DNA of 64,000 nucleotides from Polytrichum commune. Taxonomy: Eukaryota; Streptophyta; Polytrichopsida; Polytrichales; Polytrichaceae. This document shows, piece by piece, positions 1,476-25,200 of the stretch (positions within the stretch are counted from its first letter, which is position 1; every line of letters begins with the position of its first letter). The stretch lies in NCBI GenBank assembly GCA_950295325.1, contig OX485804.1:38006001-38070000 (forward strand), written 5' to 3'. The position numbers and the translations under genes were made by a program. The notes beneath the pieces are model-generated. The model saw nothing but the letters and a program-made list of their open reading frames with translations, searched no databases and was not told the origin of the DNA.

Positions 1476-2627
1476 CTCTTCAAGGAATAAAAACATCAAA
1501 GTGGATGTGAGGACCTCCCTTGACACATGGTCCACCGTTCACTAGAACCCATAAGTCAAATTTTGAGAGATGGTGCAATTATGCTTCTCGAGGTTGCAAT
1601 CATTGTGGATGCATAACAATATGCAAATGACAATTTTAATTTCCAAATGTTGACAACTTTAAGGAATTTCTACTTTCGTTAGTAGCAAACATGCCTCCAA
1701 AAGATACGATCCCAAACAACATGTATGTCAAAATGTTGTTTTGACAACGCATATTATTTGGGAAGCCACGTTTGTGACTTGTGATTGCATGGACTCAAAT
1801 GAACACATAAATCACAAATTATATTATTAGGAAGCTTATCATATGAGTAAATTCTTAGATATTCAAAGACAACCGAAAACTAAGTATTGAATCATTGTTA
1901 ATTGGGTGAATCCGGGACAATTGGGTGGACCATGAGAGGCTGACTATTGGACACAATTTGCTTGGGAAAGAGATAATGAATTCTGTAGACAATTTGTTGG
2001 ACCATGTAACAAACTTGAAGTGAGATACATGTGGTTGAATATGTGGTTCAACCTAAGAAACTTTAGGTGGAGGGCATAATCTCTTCCTTATGAGACAAAC
2101 GTAATGCCTCCATGTAGGTGACATCCCATACATGTAAATGAATAGGGGATTCTCAAAAAGAAAAATAGCAATTATGTGCACCCAATAGAGTGGCCAAGCC
2201 TAGTAAAATTCCGCATGTAGAATGGGGGGGTGTGCGATACTTGTCGAAAGAATGTTGGCATCTTGCATGAAATGCATATTCATGCTAAGTCTGGGGCCAT
2301 CATCGAACTCGGGAAAATATCGATAAGCTCATTTGGCACGGCTTTGGGCTATTGGCTGTCGGGACTTGGGCCTTTTTTTCTTCCTTGGGTTGCATCAGCC
2401 AATAAACAAAGGATCTTAAGGAACATCAACCCCTAAAGACCAAAGCAAAATTCGTCCTATAATAATTTAAAATAGTTTAGTCCAATTCATTAGCTCATTG
2501 ACGAAATTTGGCATCTTTCATGGTAAATTTGACCGTACGGATAGAAGCATTGTATGGTTTGGATTGGTCACACATATTTTTAGCAGTTTGTGTGTCTCAA
2601 ATTAGAAGACTATGACGTAAGCATATA
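1476..2627. other. Intergenic DNA, nothing recognised
   Basis: AT-rich, with only one short ORF (2230-2436), which shows no domain and no support as a gene. Confidence 0.4.
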
Positions 2628-2910
2628 CTCACTATGTTTTAAAATGATTGTATGTGTTCTTAACTTTGGCGAGATATGGTCTGTTGACCATTGATCAAAT
2701 AGTCGTAAGTATGACTCTTAGAATAGAAAATAGAAACTACTCCAAAATGCCCCCCGAAGTTGTGGTGTTGAAAGACTTCTTAATGATGAAAGTTTGGCAT
2801 GAAAATATTTGACTTTAAGCCTCAAATTTTTAACCGAGCAGATCAACCGGACAATCATTTTGGGACAAAGAAATCTGGGAGGTGCGACAATCATTTTGGG
2901 ACAGAGGGAG
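2628..2910. mobile_element. Mariner/Stowaway-like MITE flanked by TA
   Basis: The right end reads, on the minus strand, CTCCCTCTGTCCCAAAATGA, the typical start of plant mariner/Stowaway-type ends. The left end, CTCACTATGTTTTAAAATGA, is a diverged inverted copy. TA dinucleotides flank both ends at 2626-2627 and 2911-2912. The 283 bp body has no coding capacity and repeats part of the end internally near 2850, where CAATCATTTTGGGACA occurs twice. This is a non-autonomous, decayed copy. Confidence 0.6.
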
Positions 2911-3344
2911 TATGATGGTATTGTCGGACGAAGGTGTCTGCACAGACAAAAATGTCTGCCTTGGCCTTTATGGGGTTAAGTTAACCCTCCACCCCTGACG
3001 ATGCATAAACTTTTGAATTTGTGCATAAAGCTATTGGTTGGATGCACATTGATTAGTAGGGTCAAAGTATCAAATACATAACATTTTATAGAGTTCATAG
3101 AGTGTTTCCATCTTTATTATTGGAGTTTGAGGTGATGATCTAAAATAACTGCTCTTATTATGGACATTTTGATGAGTGTGGGTACTAACTCAAAGTGATC
3201 CAATGTAAATGCCGATTATCTCGTTGAATCAGGATTTCAAAGTGGATTTAAAACCCATGGCATTTAAAAACAATTAGAGCATATCTCAATTTCTTACAAA
3301 ATTTCAAAGTGGAATGTTCCCATGACCCATTGTGGTCACATAGG

Positions 3345-19854: not shown

Positions 19855-20709
19855 AACCGCCGCTCTACGCGATGAATATACTCTTCTTGTTATTCGATTG
19901 ATAAGTTCTTACATCCGATCTCGTTAGCAAATGAAAGGGCATTTTAACGCACCAAAGCACGCGTTTTTTGGATCCCGTGTGCATAAGGTATAAGGGTTCA
20001 AAGTTCGATTGGTAGACGCTCAAAACCGTTCAGGGGGAGCTTGATGTTCGGGTGTTGGACATTCTTAGTATCAATATGTCCTTAATGTGCGAAGACTTTA
20101 AGGTGTTGGTTTTAGCGCCCCCTACCTTAAGGTGTGTAGCAACCCTCATAGTTATTGTGGGTAGTTCCACATCCACAAACATTTTGACTGTTGGATTGCA
20201 ATACAATTGGGAGTTGTCCCATCCGGTTTTGCGATCGCAGGTCACGGAAATCGTTGTTTCAAGTTTTAGAATTGGTGTTGAGACACAAAACTCATAAGAA
20301 GTCAATTCAAAACGATGATTCTTGGTCTCTTTCAATGTGTCATATGGGTCCTCCCATTTTTGAGTTAAGTGTTGAACTACAAATGGTAACCATTTCATTT
20401 AATAGGTTTCACATAGTACTCAAAAGCGTAACAATCTCATTTTGACGTCCATTGTTAAATACAAGCCTTGCCATATATCACTCAAAAATTAAGAGGTGAC
20501 CGTTTAAGATGAGTGACTACCATAAGGCCACCATATCCCTTGTGGGTCACCTTACCACAAGGCATGTCATTGATTTTGAGATATTCCTATTTGACTCATT
20601 TGGTGAAGCTGGACCGGGTCAAATTACACTTACGTATACAATGACAATCCTCCATAAACCATCCACTTGGACTTTAATAAATGCCTCCTCAAAGATCGCG
20701 GATCCCTAC
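19855..20709. other. Intergenic DNA, no gene recognised
   Basis: Contains overlapping ORFs of 78-122 codons on both strands (for example 20030-20398 minus and 20509-20745 plus) without domain, motif or intron signals. I would not annotate them as genes. Confidence 0.4.
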
Positions 20710-22225
20710 TATTTTGTCACGGGGAGGTCACTTAGTGCATTTTAAAAACGACGTGCGGCATAATATAGGGAGGATTTAAATCATTTGACATAAAAATTAT
20801 AAAAGAATTCCAAATAATGAAGGGTCCATTAAAAGTACATAAGCCCATTACAAGTAAAATAGATAGGTATAAAATATGGGCCATTCCCTTTTAGTAAAAA
20901 TAATATAGGGGCTGAAAATAAGGATCTTAGGATGTATGTTTAGTAGAATCAATTTCGTACGCATGCCTCACGAGGGATGGATGAAAAATTACTCATCATT
21001 CACCCAAAAATGGATGAAATTGGAAGCCTCAGTACAGAGAACCGGAAAATTTTTGCCAACCGTAGAAATTGATGGGCATTCCATTTACAAGTCAACGTTT
21101 GTCTCGCAACTCAATGGTAATGTTTTTCTATCCAAAGATAGATTAGCAAGAATTAAACATAGTATTCATTTCAACAACCATGATAATTGTCTCCACACAA
21201 GATCTTCATGTGGATCAAGTTTGTTATCTATAGGATCTGATTGTGGGGTGCATTTTGTCCAACGGAGCACAACAATGCTATTGTCAATTGTAAAATCCGC
21301 TGCCAAACGAAAAAAGGGACGTTCAATGACTGATGTTAAAGCTGGAAATGCTACTAACATATTGAACGGAGTAGATTCCAGTTCATGGTGGGTGGGTAGG
21401 GTGCAGGCTATGCGGCGGCGCAATGGGAAACACTTTGGTGTACTTAGGCAAGCGGTTGACCTCCTTGCTCGAACGGAGGAATCAGGGAGGAGAAATCCTA
21501 ATAATCCCCACATCGAAGTAATGTTGCAATATTATAGAAAATATCCAGGCCGTAACAAATTTAAGTATGATCACACGGATAGCAAATGGATTGATGTAGA
21601 TTGCATTATATCTACGGTAACCATGACCTACAATTCTACAAATGAGGTGTACACTCTTGATAGGAATGATTCAGAGCAACTGTCCAAGTTTGTGACAGAA
21701 CGAACTATATAAGATTCATGACCAAGCTTAAAGTGTTTCACACTATATGGTTTTGGTCTTCACTAGCATGTAAAGTGATTTTGAATAAAGGATTTGTATG
21801 GAGCGGGTGTTGTGTTTGTGAACACACACACAATCTTGTTGTGTTTGTAAACACACACTTAATCATGTTGTGTTCCATCCTAAGTCTTCTTTTTGTAATT
21901 TCACTTTAAGTTTTTGTACTTGGTTTTTGCAATGGTACGTAATTTTTATATTTTTTTGTTGCCATGCTTTTCCCATCACTTTTACATTGCATACATTCTT
22001 AAATTCAGTTTTTTTAATTAAAAGGAATATAGACTACAAAAAATTTCAATGACATGGGCATTATAAGTAATGGTAGGGTACAAAAAAACAGGCCATTTTA
22101 GAATATTATGTAATTATAGGGAGCTTTTAATTCGTGCCTTGGAGGTAAATAGCCCCTAAACAAATACCCCTCCGCCGCACGTGGTATACAAAAATCCTAC
22201 TGAGTGACCTCCCCGTGTATTTTGT
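20710..22225. mobile_element. 1.5 kb DNA transposon with 8 bp target duplication and an intact ORF
   Basis: The element runs 20718-22217 (1500 bp). Its start CACGGGGAGGTCACTTAGT and the minus-strand reading of its end, CACGGGGAGGTCACTCAGT, match at 18 of 19. A second shared block, ACGTGCGGC, lies 33 bp in from the left end and 35 bp in from the right. The octamer TATTTTGT flanks it exactly on both sides (20710-20717 and 22218-22225). An open frame of 258 codons lies inside (20936-21712), followed by a ~30 bp tandem repeat (GTTGTGTTTGT...) near 21809-21871. Eight-base duplications occur in hAT, P, Novosib and Zisupton/KDZ elements. The CACGGGG end fits none of these with certainty from memory. 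Confidence 0.85.
20936..21712 (+). CDS. Unrecognised 258-residue protein carried by the 1.5 kb transposon
   Basis: The longest clean ORF in the window; it has no stop although almost all neighbouring transposon genes are broken. The ATG at 20936 follows an in-frame TAG at 20906. Splice-acceptor-like CTTAG and ATAAG just before it would also allow an upstream exon, though only about 190 bp separate it from the left inverted end. Visible parts are a basic N-terminus, LPTVEIDGHSIYKS (40-53), a basic patch KRKKGR (124-129) that could be a nuclear signal, WWVGRVQAMRRRNGK (151-165), RQAVDLL (171-177) and FKYDHTDSKWID (209-220). The W..GRV.....R.....R..VDLL pattern is loosely like reader-type beta-barrel (BAH-like) modules. 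No DDE catalytic triad is evident. It may be the tail of a larger transposase (KDZ/Zisupton-like is one guess) or a captured gene. Confidence 0.6.
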   Translation: MFSRINFVRMPHEGWMKNYSSFTQKWMKLEASVQRTGKFLPTVEIDGHSIYKSTFVSQLNGNVFLSKDRLARIKHSIHFNNHDNCLHTRSSCGSSLLSIGSDCGVHFVQRSTTMLLSIVKSAAKRKKGRSMTDVKAGNATNILNGVDSSSWWVGRVQAMRRRNGKHFGVLRQAVDLLARTEESGRRNPNNPHIEVMLQYYRKYPGRNKFKYDHTDSKWIDVDCIISTVTMTYNSTNEVYTLDRNDSEQLSKFVTERTI

Positions 22226-25200
22226 GAAATTCGGTGTTAATTTAAGTTCTCCAAATTTGACCTTAACATAGTTAGAGTGAATTCCAAATGCAACACATTC
22301 TAGCATTTGCTACTTCAATTGTATTTTCCTAGCCAATGTTTTTTGAAGTATTATATGTATATATATTTTGTTATTATGCATGTAATATAATACATTTATT
22401 TTTATTTACTAGTAAAGTATGTATTATCATATATTACTAGCCAGGTAATTATGTATTACACATACTTGTTTCTAATCCTTGAGATTTAAGAGTGATTGCC
22501 AATGTATCATATGTGGTGTGCTTCCTTTTGGGGGACATTAAACTTCCACCTATGAGCTTTTAGGGGGACGTGAATACTAGGGGCCACGGCAGTCCCGCCC
22601 CAAAATTATTCGAGATCTTATGAACCCAACCAGAATTACTGCCCTCTCCGCCCAACCTTGAAAAACACATTGCCCTTGTATTCTTGAAGGCCGCTTGTCC
22701 ACAAAATCCCATATTGAGTGCACTTCACCTTCAAGGTCCAAAATCCAATATATATGTGCACTTCCACTTAATAAATAAGTAATTGATTGGGATTCCATAT
22801 CCAAAGTGAAACTGCCAATAAAACATATAATTAACCTAGAAGTCAAAAACATTACAAAATCCTCATTAGCATTGAGGTTATAAATTTTTTGACTTACCAT
22901 TTGAAGGGGACTTTGTCATTCTAAAATGAACTTTAAGTTAGTGCATTGATTTAGTATGCATATTTTATAATATTTTAGGTAATGCCTTCTACTTTCACAA
23001 GTATTCATACACATTCAAAATAATTAAGTGTGATTAAATGTATTCAAGCATAAATAACTGTAACTGAATCTGATTGAGTGCAAGGCCTAAGTTCCTACAA
23101 GAATTCATACACATTTGAACTAATTAAGCCTGATTAAGTGCAAGTAAGCACATTAAACCTAATCAAGCGTAATGAAGCCTAAACAAGTGTAATTAAGCAC
23201 ATCAATCTTCATCTCTGAATTAAATCATGCTTAATTTAAGTAAGAGCACTTTAGAATTAATTAGAATTAACTAGTTTGGTAAGCATACTTTTTTAATTTT
23301 ATTAGGCTTGATTAGGATTACTTAGGTTCTAGGCTAGAGTTCCAATCAAAGAGACCAAGGAATACAAACCTTTGTCCCAAAAACTTGAATTCAAACAAAC
23401 TATGTTGGAAAGCAATTTGTGAATTATTGGAGGTCAACACACACAGTACAAGCGATGAGAGAAGTGATGAATGACCCGAATTTTGCCAGCCATGAAGATA
23501 TCAAGGCTTATTGTAGTTTCCACGAGATTGTTGTTGTGTGAATATTAGACAAAGAGAAAATGATGTACATGTCCCAAAGTGTTGAGCTTCAAAATTTATG
23601 ACAAAGATGCAAGGCCCACCTACTTTGAGGATGTCACACAAGGTAAAACAATTTGGATCGATTGTGAAAAGCCGCAACCTATGAAATTGGGTGGCATACA
23701 TTCAACATAATGGAATCATGTAAGTTCTATCACCTTCAATTTCTTTGTGGAATGTTTTATTTGTGATGTTTGTCTTTCTAGACGTCTCCAAATGCATAAT
23801 CCAACACACTCGACATTCAAGGACTTCCATATGACATGATTTAGGAGATCGACACTTTAATTTTGATAAGAAAATGTGTTGTAATGTTGTGCTACCTTGT
23901 GTGAAATCTCTTGTATCTCTTGCTGATGTGTGTAACAAAACAAAGGACAAAATTGTTGTCAAGCAAGAGGTCATGACACGGCATGGTTGGAAATGTCCCC
24001 ACAAGGGGAAAGGTTACAAGGCATGGACTTACCAAGACTGAGTGGATGTGTCCAACAAGCACAAATTTGATGCCTCCTTTATGGCCATGATGCGGAAGCT
24101 CGTAAGGGGAACTCACACATGAAAGGCATGGCTAAAAGAGAGGAAAAATTTAATAAAAAATTCCCAAGTACTAGCTCTTCCAAATTTAGGGTTTAGGGTT
24201 TAGGGGTTGAAACCTAGGGAAGTCCTAGATGATAGTTTGAGGGAAAACACATTATTATCAAGACGAAGGAGTTGAATGACATTTTAGGGGCTATGAAGGA
24301 GTGGAGTGTTTGTGATCCTCCACATTGAATTTTTATCACTCCCATAGGTGTGGCTCTTATGCTTCCAATCCAATGCAAAATCATGCAAAAAAAATGAAGA
24401 TGAGGCTGCGCAAAATTCTACACTATTGGGTATACACTAGTTCTTTTGCTCCCTTTAAGTAGTAGCATGATGCATCATATGGCTTCGTGAGATTAGTATT
24501 TGGGATTATCACATTATGGTTGTGTCGCCTAATACTAAGCTAGAGACATTTGTGGTACCTAATCGGGAGACCCATGTCTTGGTGTATGTTTGATGATTTT
24601 TTTGAAAGCTCTCATAGAGGCTAAAAATGCAAAGCATTAGAAAATCTTGTTCAGTGTCAACAAATTGGTGATTTGTTGATTTGAAGACACTAAAGCAATC
24701 TCCTCTAGGAACGGACCAATGATGCGTGCTTAACTCAACGTTTCATCTCTTGACACTGTTAAGGTAGAATATAACACTGTATTTTAAGAACATAAATGTC
24801 CATAGTAAACCAACTTGTCAAAATTTGACTAGTTGGTCACAAATCATCAAAAGGGCAAAAAATGCCAGTTTTCTAGTTGATGTCAAATTTGTCCTTGATA
24901 CAATTAGGTGTTAGAGCGTCCACTAGTTGGGTTATATTGTTTTACTATTGAAGAGTCTATTTAGTAATATTAATTATTTGATGTTAGTAACTTAGTTGGT
25001 CAGAAAATGACTTATAGGTCCAAAGTTATCAAAATGACATTGTGAGTCTTTTACTAGTTAACCATTTTTTATGACCTCAGTGGGCCAGTTGGTCATAAAG
25101 TGGACAGAGGGCAAAAACGTGTCAGGATATCTAGTTGCAATGTTTTGACATGGTGGCCACCTACCAAGTTGACCCACCTAATAATTAGTTGTTTTGAAGT

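Follow-up and report, generated by a model that had tools for sequence, protein, structure and literature searches.

A stretch of 64,000 nucleotides of the Polytrichum commune genome (contig OX485804.1, positions 38,006,001 to 38,070,000; hereafter the window) holds a compact repeat-flanked element with an unbroken open reading frame (ORF) of 258 codons, and the locus raises the question of what kind of transposon this is, where it came from, and whether its frame encodes a working protein. An earlier note, made from the sequence without database searches, had described a young, possibly undescribed DNA transposon and had left its superfamily unassigned. Here, the element was compared with its copies through the genome, with longer relatives sharing its ends, and with characterized transposases.

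Structure, copies and age of the window element

The element occupies positions 20718-22217, exactly 1,500 bp, between two copies of the octamer TATTTTGT (20710-20717 and 22218-22225) that form a perfect 8-bp target site duplication (TSD). Its terminal inverted repeats (TIRs), CACGGGGAGGTCACTTAGT at 20718-20736 on the forward strand and CACGGGGAGGTCACTCAGT at 22199-22217 on the reverse strand, are identical at 18 of 19 positions, and were supported by comparison of the two arms, a motif scan of the window and a genome-wide 24-mer search; within the window the end motif is found at just these two sites when up to 3 mismatches are allowed, with a shuffle expectation of 0 (100 shuffles). Internal to the TIRs lies a second symmetric block, ACGTGCGGC, at 20751-20759 (forward strand) and, inverted, at 22174-22182 (reverse strand). 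The same block is present at the left ends of three full-length elements described below (A, B and C), and it is a possible transposase-binding site. Thus, the size, TIRs, symmetric block and TSD given in the earlier note were all borne out by sequence comparison. No Rfam family was found at gathering thresholds over positions 20000-23000. In the left flank, a short ORF (20509-20745) crosses the insertion point into the element.

Copies were searched for in the 407.8-Mb assembly, constituted by 64 contigs, seven of them large (42-78 Mb), a number that would fit a moss with seven chromosomes; an rbcL of plastid type and a short accD, both bryophyte-like in appearance, lie on contig C8. Allowing up to 2 mismatches, the left-end 24-mer CACGGGGAGGTCACTTAGTGCATT gave 1,253 genome matches and the right-end 24-mer gave 149, with 0 matches for each reversed control. 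Among the matches listed (100 of the 1,253 and 100 of the 149), 67 of 100 left ends were paired with a right end, and the resulting sizes were often about 680, 850, 1,050 or 1,460-1,500 bp, with others between these values and a few longer. Left-type ends far outnumber right-type ends, an excess that points to many short elements with a left-type end at either side, or to ends standing alone.

Further, a DNA search in which the best 40 of 1,676 candidates were scored returned 44 matches including the window, 37 of which span the query from base 1 or 2 to base 1499 or 1500 with at least 96% identity. From the 40 further copies that were fetched, 37 were complete (the incomplete ones being L040, L052 and L053), and these displayed perfect 8-bp TSDs in 36 cases and a 7/8 match in the remaining one, with no 9-bp duplication. 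The family is dispersed in the genome as multiple copies, each with its own TSD. Across 38 TSDs, T occupies position 2 in 18 and A occupies position 7 in 11; the 8-bp duplications of hAT elements are biased to nTnnnnAn. Relative to the majority consensus, the window copy carries 16 differences (1.07% of sites), and the other 37 copies diverge from this consensus by 0.67 to 2.87%. Plant substitution rates lie between 5e-9 and 1e-8 per site per year, which places the window copy at roughly one to two million years of age. The window element is therefore a true and young DNA transposon, as had been claimed; its ends are paired elsewhere in the genome, and the octamer match is not a coincidence. 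A search with the joined flanks for a paralogous empty site found none, the two window flanks being the sole matches. Directly behind one copy (C5:23996380-23998447), extra partial copies of the element ends are found in the same orientation, perhaps a nested or tandem insertion.

Probable origin by internal deletion and nature of the 258-codon frame

One of the full-length relatives is element C, which has a length of 8,496 bp and the TSD AAAGGTGC. Its sequence aligns to the window element with 98.4% identity over bases 1-312 of the latter and 97.2% over bases 310-1500, and the two matches overlap by 3 bp, CCT, at the join. The window element is thus made of the two outer parts of a family member of about 8.5 kb, joined at 3 shared bases. 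It comprises, on the forward strand, the retained 5' leader (20718-21029, 98.4% identity to element C), the retained C-terminal domain of the transposase (21029-21712, 83% identity to the L003 C terminus), and the 3' non-coding part of the parent with its right end (21713-22217, within the 97.2% match); the deletion junction with its shared CCT lies at 21027-21029, and about 7 kb was lost there relative to element C. Element C itself has its coding part split into two open stretches, one of 342 and the other of 1,086 codons. Just beyond the right end of element C (L004:6201-7195) lies a cluster of spaced repeats, whose 24-bp unit resembles a palindrome (GGTTTGGGTCGACCGACCCAAACC) and also occurs in a variant form.

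As a young deletion derivative, the window element is of an ordinary kind. Our main reading, to which we assign a probability of about 0.8, is that it constitutes a Ds-like non-autonomous derivative of a large cut-and-paste DNA transposon. A parent of about 8.5 kb would have lost its middle by deletion, leaving a 1.5-kb element that keeps both ends and the C-terminal end of the transposase, and the transposase of a full-length relative would then drive its spread in trans. Maize Ac/Ds is a two-component hAT system, and the present family resembles it in its short, internally deleted and spreading copies, most of them devoid of a working gene, as well as in its 8-bp TSDs; however, the family transposase displays no hAT dimerisation domain by Pfam. 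The family has supplied dozens of young non-autonomous elements measured here, and perhaps hundreds, given the 1,253 left-type ends.

The ORF at 20936-21712 (forward strand, 258 aa) is the sole ATG-initiated ORF of at least 200 aa in the window. In protein searches, its residues from about 32 to 258 match the ends of far longer open frames, for instance one of 1,502 codons with 83% identity to that part of the ORF. Since element C matches both outer parts, the frame is best read as a chance in-frame fusion of 31 leader codons with the last 227 codons of the transposase. The earlier note had stressed that the frame is intact, and a functional small protein, such as a repressor acting in trans or the product of a captured chromatin-reader gene, would be the alternative; we consider it highly improbable. 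The majority consensus of 36 copies is indeed open over the 258 codons, three copies stop just four codons early, and a precedent is offered by the interference of inactive P proteins with their active counterparts, in the passage of a review citing Misra and Rio (PMC9033089). Against this, the frame is kept in only 7 of 38 copies, window included (one more has 259 codons), and in the 36 core copies we counted 349 replacement changes relative to the consensus, 40 of them stops, and 86 silent ones, an observed-to-expected N:S ratio of 1.36 by a simple weighted count; the divergent copies L051 and L054 entered the frame count, and the consensus and N:S count were made without them. Replacements are not depleted, the copies show no trace of purifying selection on the ORF, and its intact frame is no evidence of function.

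The gene-capture version of this alternative, also raised in the earlier note, fails on different grounds: the same domain forms the transposase C terminus in the full-length relatives, where the ORF sequence runs on into transposase ORFs of about 1,500 aa, and capture is therefore rejected. The ORF is a passenger, and its translation is putative. The note's other proposal, the C-terminal part of a KDZ-type transposase, was right as to the transposase C terminus and unsupported as to KDZ, no Pfam KDZ match having been obtained among the relatives scanned. Structure prediction of the 258-aa protein alone, as had been suggested, was carried out and was uninformative (mean pLDDT of 32). A profile of the C-terminal domain gave a best E-value of 0.069 against PDB and of 0.021 against Pfam, neither convincing, and a BAH-like reader identity for the domain was unsupported by these profile searches.

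Full-length relatives and their transposase

Full-length relatives were found in sizes of 5.8-9.7 kb, with ends of the form CnCGGG and, in the main clade, transposases of about 1,500 residues. Element A (9,703 bp, TSD CATAGACT) contains an unbroken frame of 1,491 codons, and that of element B (8,621 bp, TSD ATTGTGAC) is broken by a deletion. A family of 6,351 bp is present at two places, G and H, with TSDs AAAGAAAC and CTCTTCTA, and the ends of element D fit the TSD GTGATTTC after a one-base shift by hand. A distant clade with ends CCCGGGGTGGCAAC is represented by L063 and L064, elements of 6,034 and 5,800 bp with TSDs CTCAGCTC and GTAACGAG, whose proteins have a length of 1,150 residues and share 28-30% identity with L003. 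An exact 8-bp TSD was present in all eight full-length elements with both ends found (A, B, C, G, H, D, L063 and L064); the left end of the L013 copy was not closed. In element A, assembled by joining L006 and L003, the long 5' leader carries a tandem duplication of about 216 bp (2621-3060, 80%).

Six unbroken frames of the main clade encode 1,491, 1,490, 1,499, 1,496, 1,509 and 1,493 aa (the last being L067); the families outside that of L003, which include the frames of 1,490, 1,499, 1,496 and 1,509 aa, have about 48-63% protein identity to it, and L013 and L014 have shorter frames of 1,333 and 1,115 codons. A comparison of L003 with L004 over 1,086 codons gave a dN/dS ratio of 0.10, and the ratio for the C-terminal 230 codons was 0.16; of six pairs, two gave finite values and four had saturated dS, and the members of the pair L063-L064 (0.57) are too close for interpretation. 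With single exceptions, the transposases share the conserved blocks AEDET, GHASDGDSRRR, QDxxHxxKKLxNPL and GSDxCExFFS. The distant clade displays a second, Cys-rich ORF upstream of the transposase (L063:925-2157, 410 aa; L064:6205-7296, 363 aa), and a Pfam scan of the 410-aa protein gave no credible match.

The parent group thus looks coherent in its ends, duplication and protein, and undescribed in the libraries used. Pfam was scanned 18 times, with 16 distinct proteins or protein pieces, and returned just weak matches to unrelated models (best E-value of 0.015), NCBIfam gave no match for two proteins, and PDB sequences gave none for L003 or for a profile of seven transposases. The window element leads to a coherent full-length set whose transposases of about 1,500 residues are unrecognised by the Pfam, NCBIfam and PDB sequence searches made here. 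Both these elements and the short copies derived from them would probably go unclassified in repeat pipelines that depend on known transposases. Outside the host genome, 55 pattern matches in viral contigs and 74 in prokaryote genomes were obtained, none of which was confirmed as a relative by tblastn.

The element could also belong to a described plant superfamily that our searches missed. hAT elements make 8-bp duplications too, and the duplications of Mutator (9 bp), CACTA and Harbinger (3 bp) differ from the 8-bp TSDs of the complete copies and the eight full-length elements examined. Zisupton, of the KDZ group, combines a large transposase with an 8-bp duplication, both of which recur in the present family; however, the KDZ catalytic domain (PF18758) found no match among the relatives scanned, and a KDZ search of the genome gave 0 matches, its search controls being silent as well. 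The terminal inverted repeat superfamilies of land plants are given as Tc1-Mariner, hAT, Sola, MULE, PIF-Harbinger and CACTA in the part of a review consulted (PMC9033089), and none of the 16 proteins or pieces scanned gave a match to a model of hAT, Mutator, PIF-Harbinger, CACTA, Tc1-Mariner or Sola, although Pfam covers most of these superfamilies; we regard an overlooked member of any of them as very unlikely. No description of the element family was recognised in the titles and abstracts searched, full text being covered for open-licence articles, and the DNA transposons discussed in the consulted part of a Physcomitrium study are the mariner-like PpTc1 and PpTc2 (PMC7466625).

Likeness to the P element

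The P element displays 8-bp target duplications, subterminal inverted blocks and internally deleted non-autonomous copies, according to the section consulted of PMC7776569, and the present family is similar to P and THAP9 (Drosophila transposase structure 6p5a) in these three features. The likeness may extend to the order of acidic residues, D-D-D(2)H-D-E, with similar spacing after the second D, and to an insertion that precedes the catalytic Glu and measures about 190-200 residues. In the P superfamily, this string corresponds to D230, D303, D339 in D(2)H, D444 (a GTP contact) and E531 in the excerpt consulted of PMC8230255, to which we matched D696, D815, D862-x2-H865, D964 and E1057 of the family, five residues picked after the P likeness had been noticed. 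With those five fixed, the best ordered D-D-D-D-E series in P was exactly D230, D303, D339(2)H, D444 and E531, a result that 0 of 300 shuffles reached; reciprocally, the five residues ranked 1/86, 3/86, 1/86, 1/86 and 2/99 among the residues of the same type in L003. The spacings are 119-47-102-93 in the family, 120-42-106-85 in L063, 73-36-105-87 in P and 70-40-105-94 in THAP9, with the P and THAP9 residues as given in the parts consulted of PMC8230255 and PMC7776569. The distance from D(2)H to E is 195 in the family, 192 in P and 199 in THAP9 (P and THAP9 residues from the same excerpt of PMC8230255). Agreement with P in the putative insertion domain consists of its length (195 residues) and Asp964 alone, and D964 is replaced by Glu in the distant clade.

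By hhalign against P, E-values of 0.14 were obtained both with 7 sequences and with a 13-row core (11 used), neither significant, and in the core controls shuffles scored equally high in 7 of 60 local and 14 of 60 global alignments. With the five family residues left free as well, the optimum fell off the published sites; at the three window sizes of the test it was reached by 3, 25 and 1 of 100 shuffles, and for one of these sizes the reversed P sequence scored higher. A chain of PSSM blocks against P reached a score matched by 6 of 3,000 shuffles, and two of the five blocks singly scored best at D230 and D444; the chain itself missed the catalytic sites, and for that reason we do not count it in favour of P. 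The near-duplicates L004, L064 and L065 were dropped from the profile for the PSSM chain, spacing, and fixed- and free-residue tests, and L013 was dropped from the alignment behind the conserved blocks, the 13-row hhalign comparison and the site tests.

We judge that the family probably works like a P-type DDE element. The transposase (1,490-1,509 aa in the main clade) would bind the inverted ends and the subterminal block, cut through a D-D-E site housed in a split RNase-H fold, and join the two ends to the target at positions separated by 8 bp. Its insertion of about 195 residues, which has the size of that in P and includes a conserved Asp, may serve to bind a nucleotide, as happens in the P transposase; nucleotide use by this insertion is the least certain step, and we propose it tentatively. 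Kinship with P is plausible, though unproven, and the family is not filed as a member of the P superfamily: because the hhalign and free-residue controls were weak and the five residues were picked post hoc, membership is not claimed. Several traits also set the family apart, namely elements of 5.8-9.7 kb versus 2.9 kb in P, a single long ORF (1,490-1,509 aa) in six unbroken copies, ends beginning CnCGGG, a spacing from the first to the second Asp that is 46 residues longer, an extra conserved C-terminal domain, no THAP domain detected, and no significant sequence or profile match to P.

Alternatively, the full-length elements may belong to a new superfamily that has converged on P in its 8-bp TSD and order of acidic residues, its true kin being hAT, KDZ or none. 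This is possible, if somewhat doubtful: the profile match to P is not significant, the unrestricted site control is not selective, no THAP domain was found in the relatives scanned, and the first two Asp lie 46 residues further apart than in P, but the reciprocal ranks of the five residues in L003 and the near-identical D(2)H-to-E distance (195 in the family, against 192 and 199 in the excerpt consulted) argue against it, as does the lack of any match to a hAT dimerisation or KDZ model among the relatives scanned. The most far-reaching reading sees in the family an undescribed superfamily of land-plant cut-and-paste elements, sister to P/THAP9, with a P-type insertion domain (possibly GTP-using) and a single transposase of about 1,500 residues with an extra C-terminal domain, a proposal to which we give an even chance.

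With regard to previous reports, the portion consulted of a 2015 survey found the P-element superfamily in all groups studied, land plants included (PMC4438587), so that P annotations exist in plants, and a survey of RNase-H folds places P transposases near hAT and recognises distant P homologues outside insects, in the part consulted (PMC3985635). If the sister relationship is true, the P architecture would greatly exceed the animal elements in age and diversity, and if the P-like reading holds, the family would provide a plant counterpart in which to test the P mechanism, including the insertion domain and its possible use of GTP. The P-family and THAP models of Pfam had no match in the relatives scanned, and a P-family search of the genome had none either, its search controls being silent too. 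In the protein alignment, two Cys/His-rich blocks, rather than an N-terminal THAP domain, can be recognised by eye.
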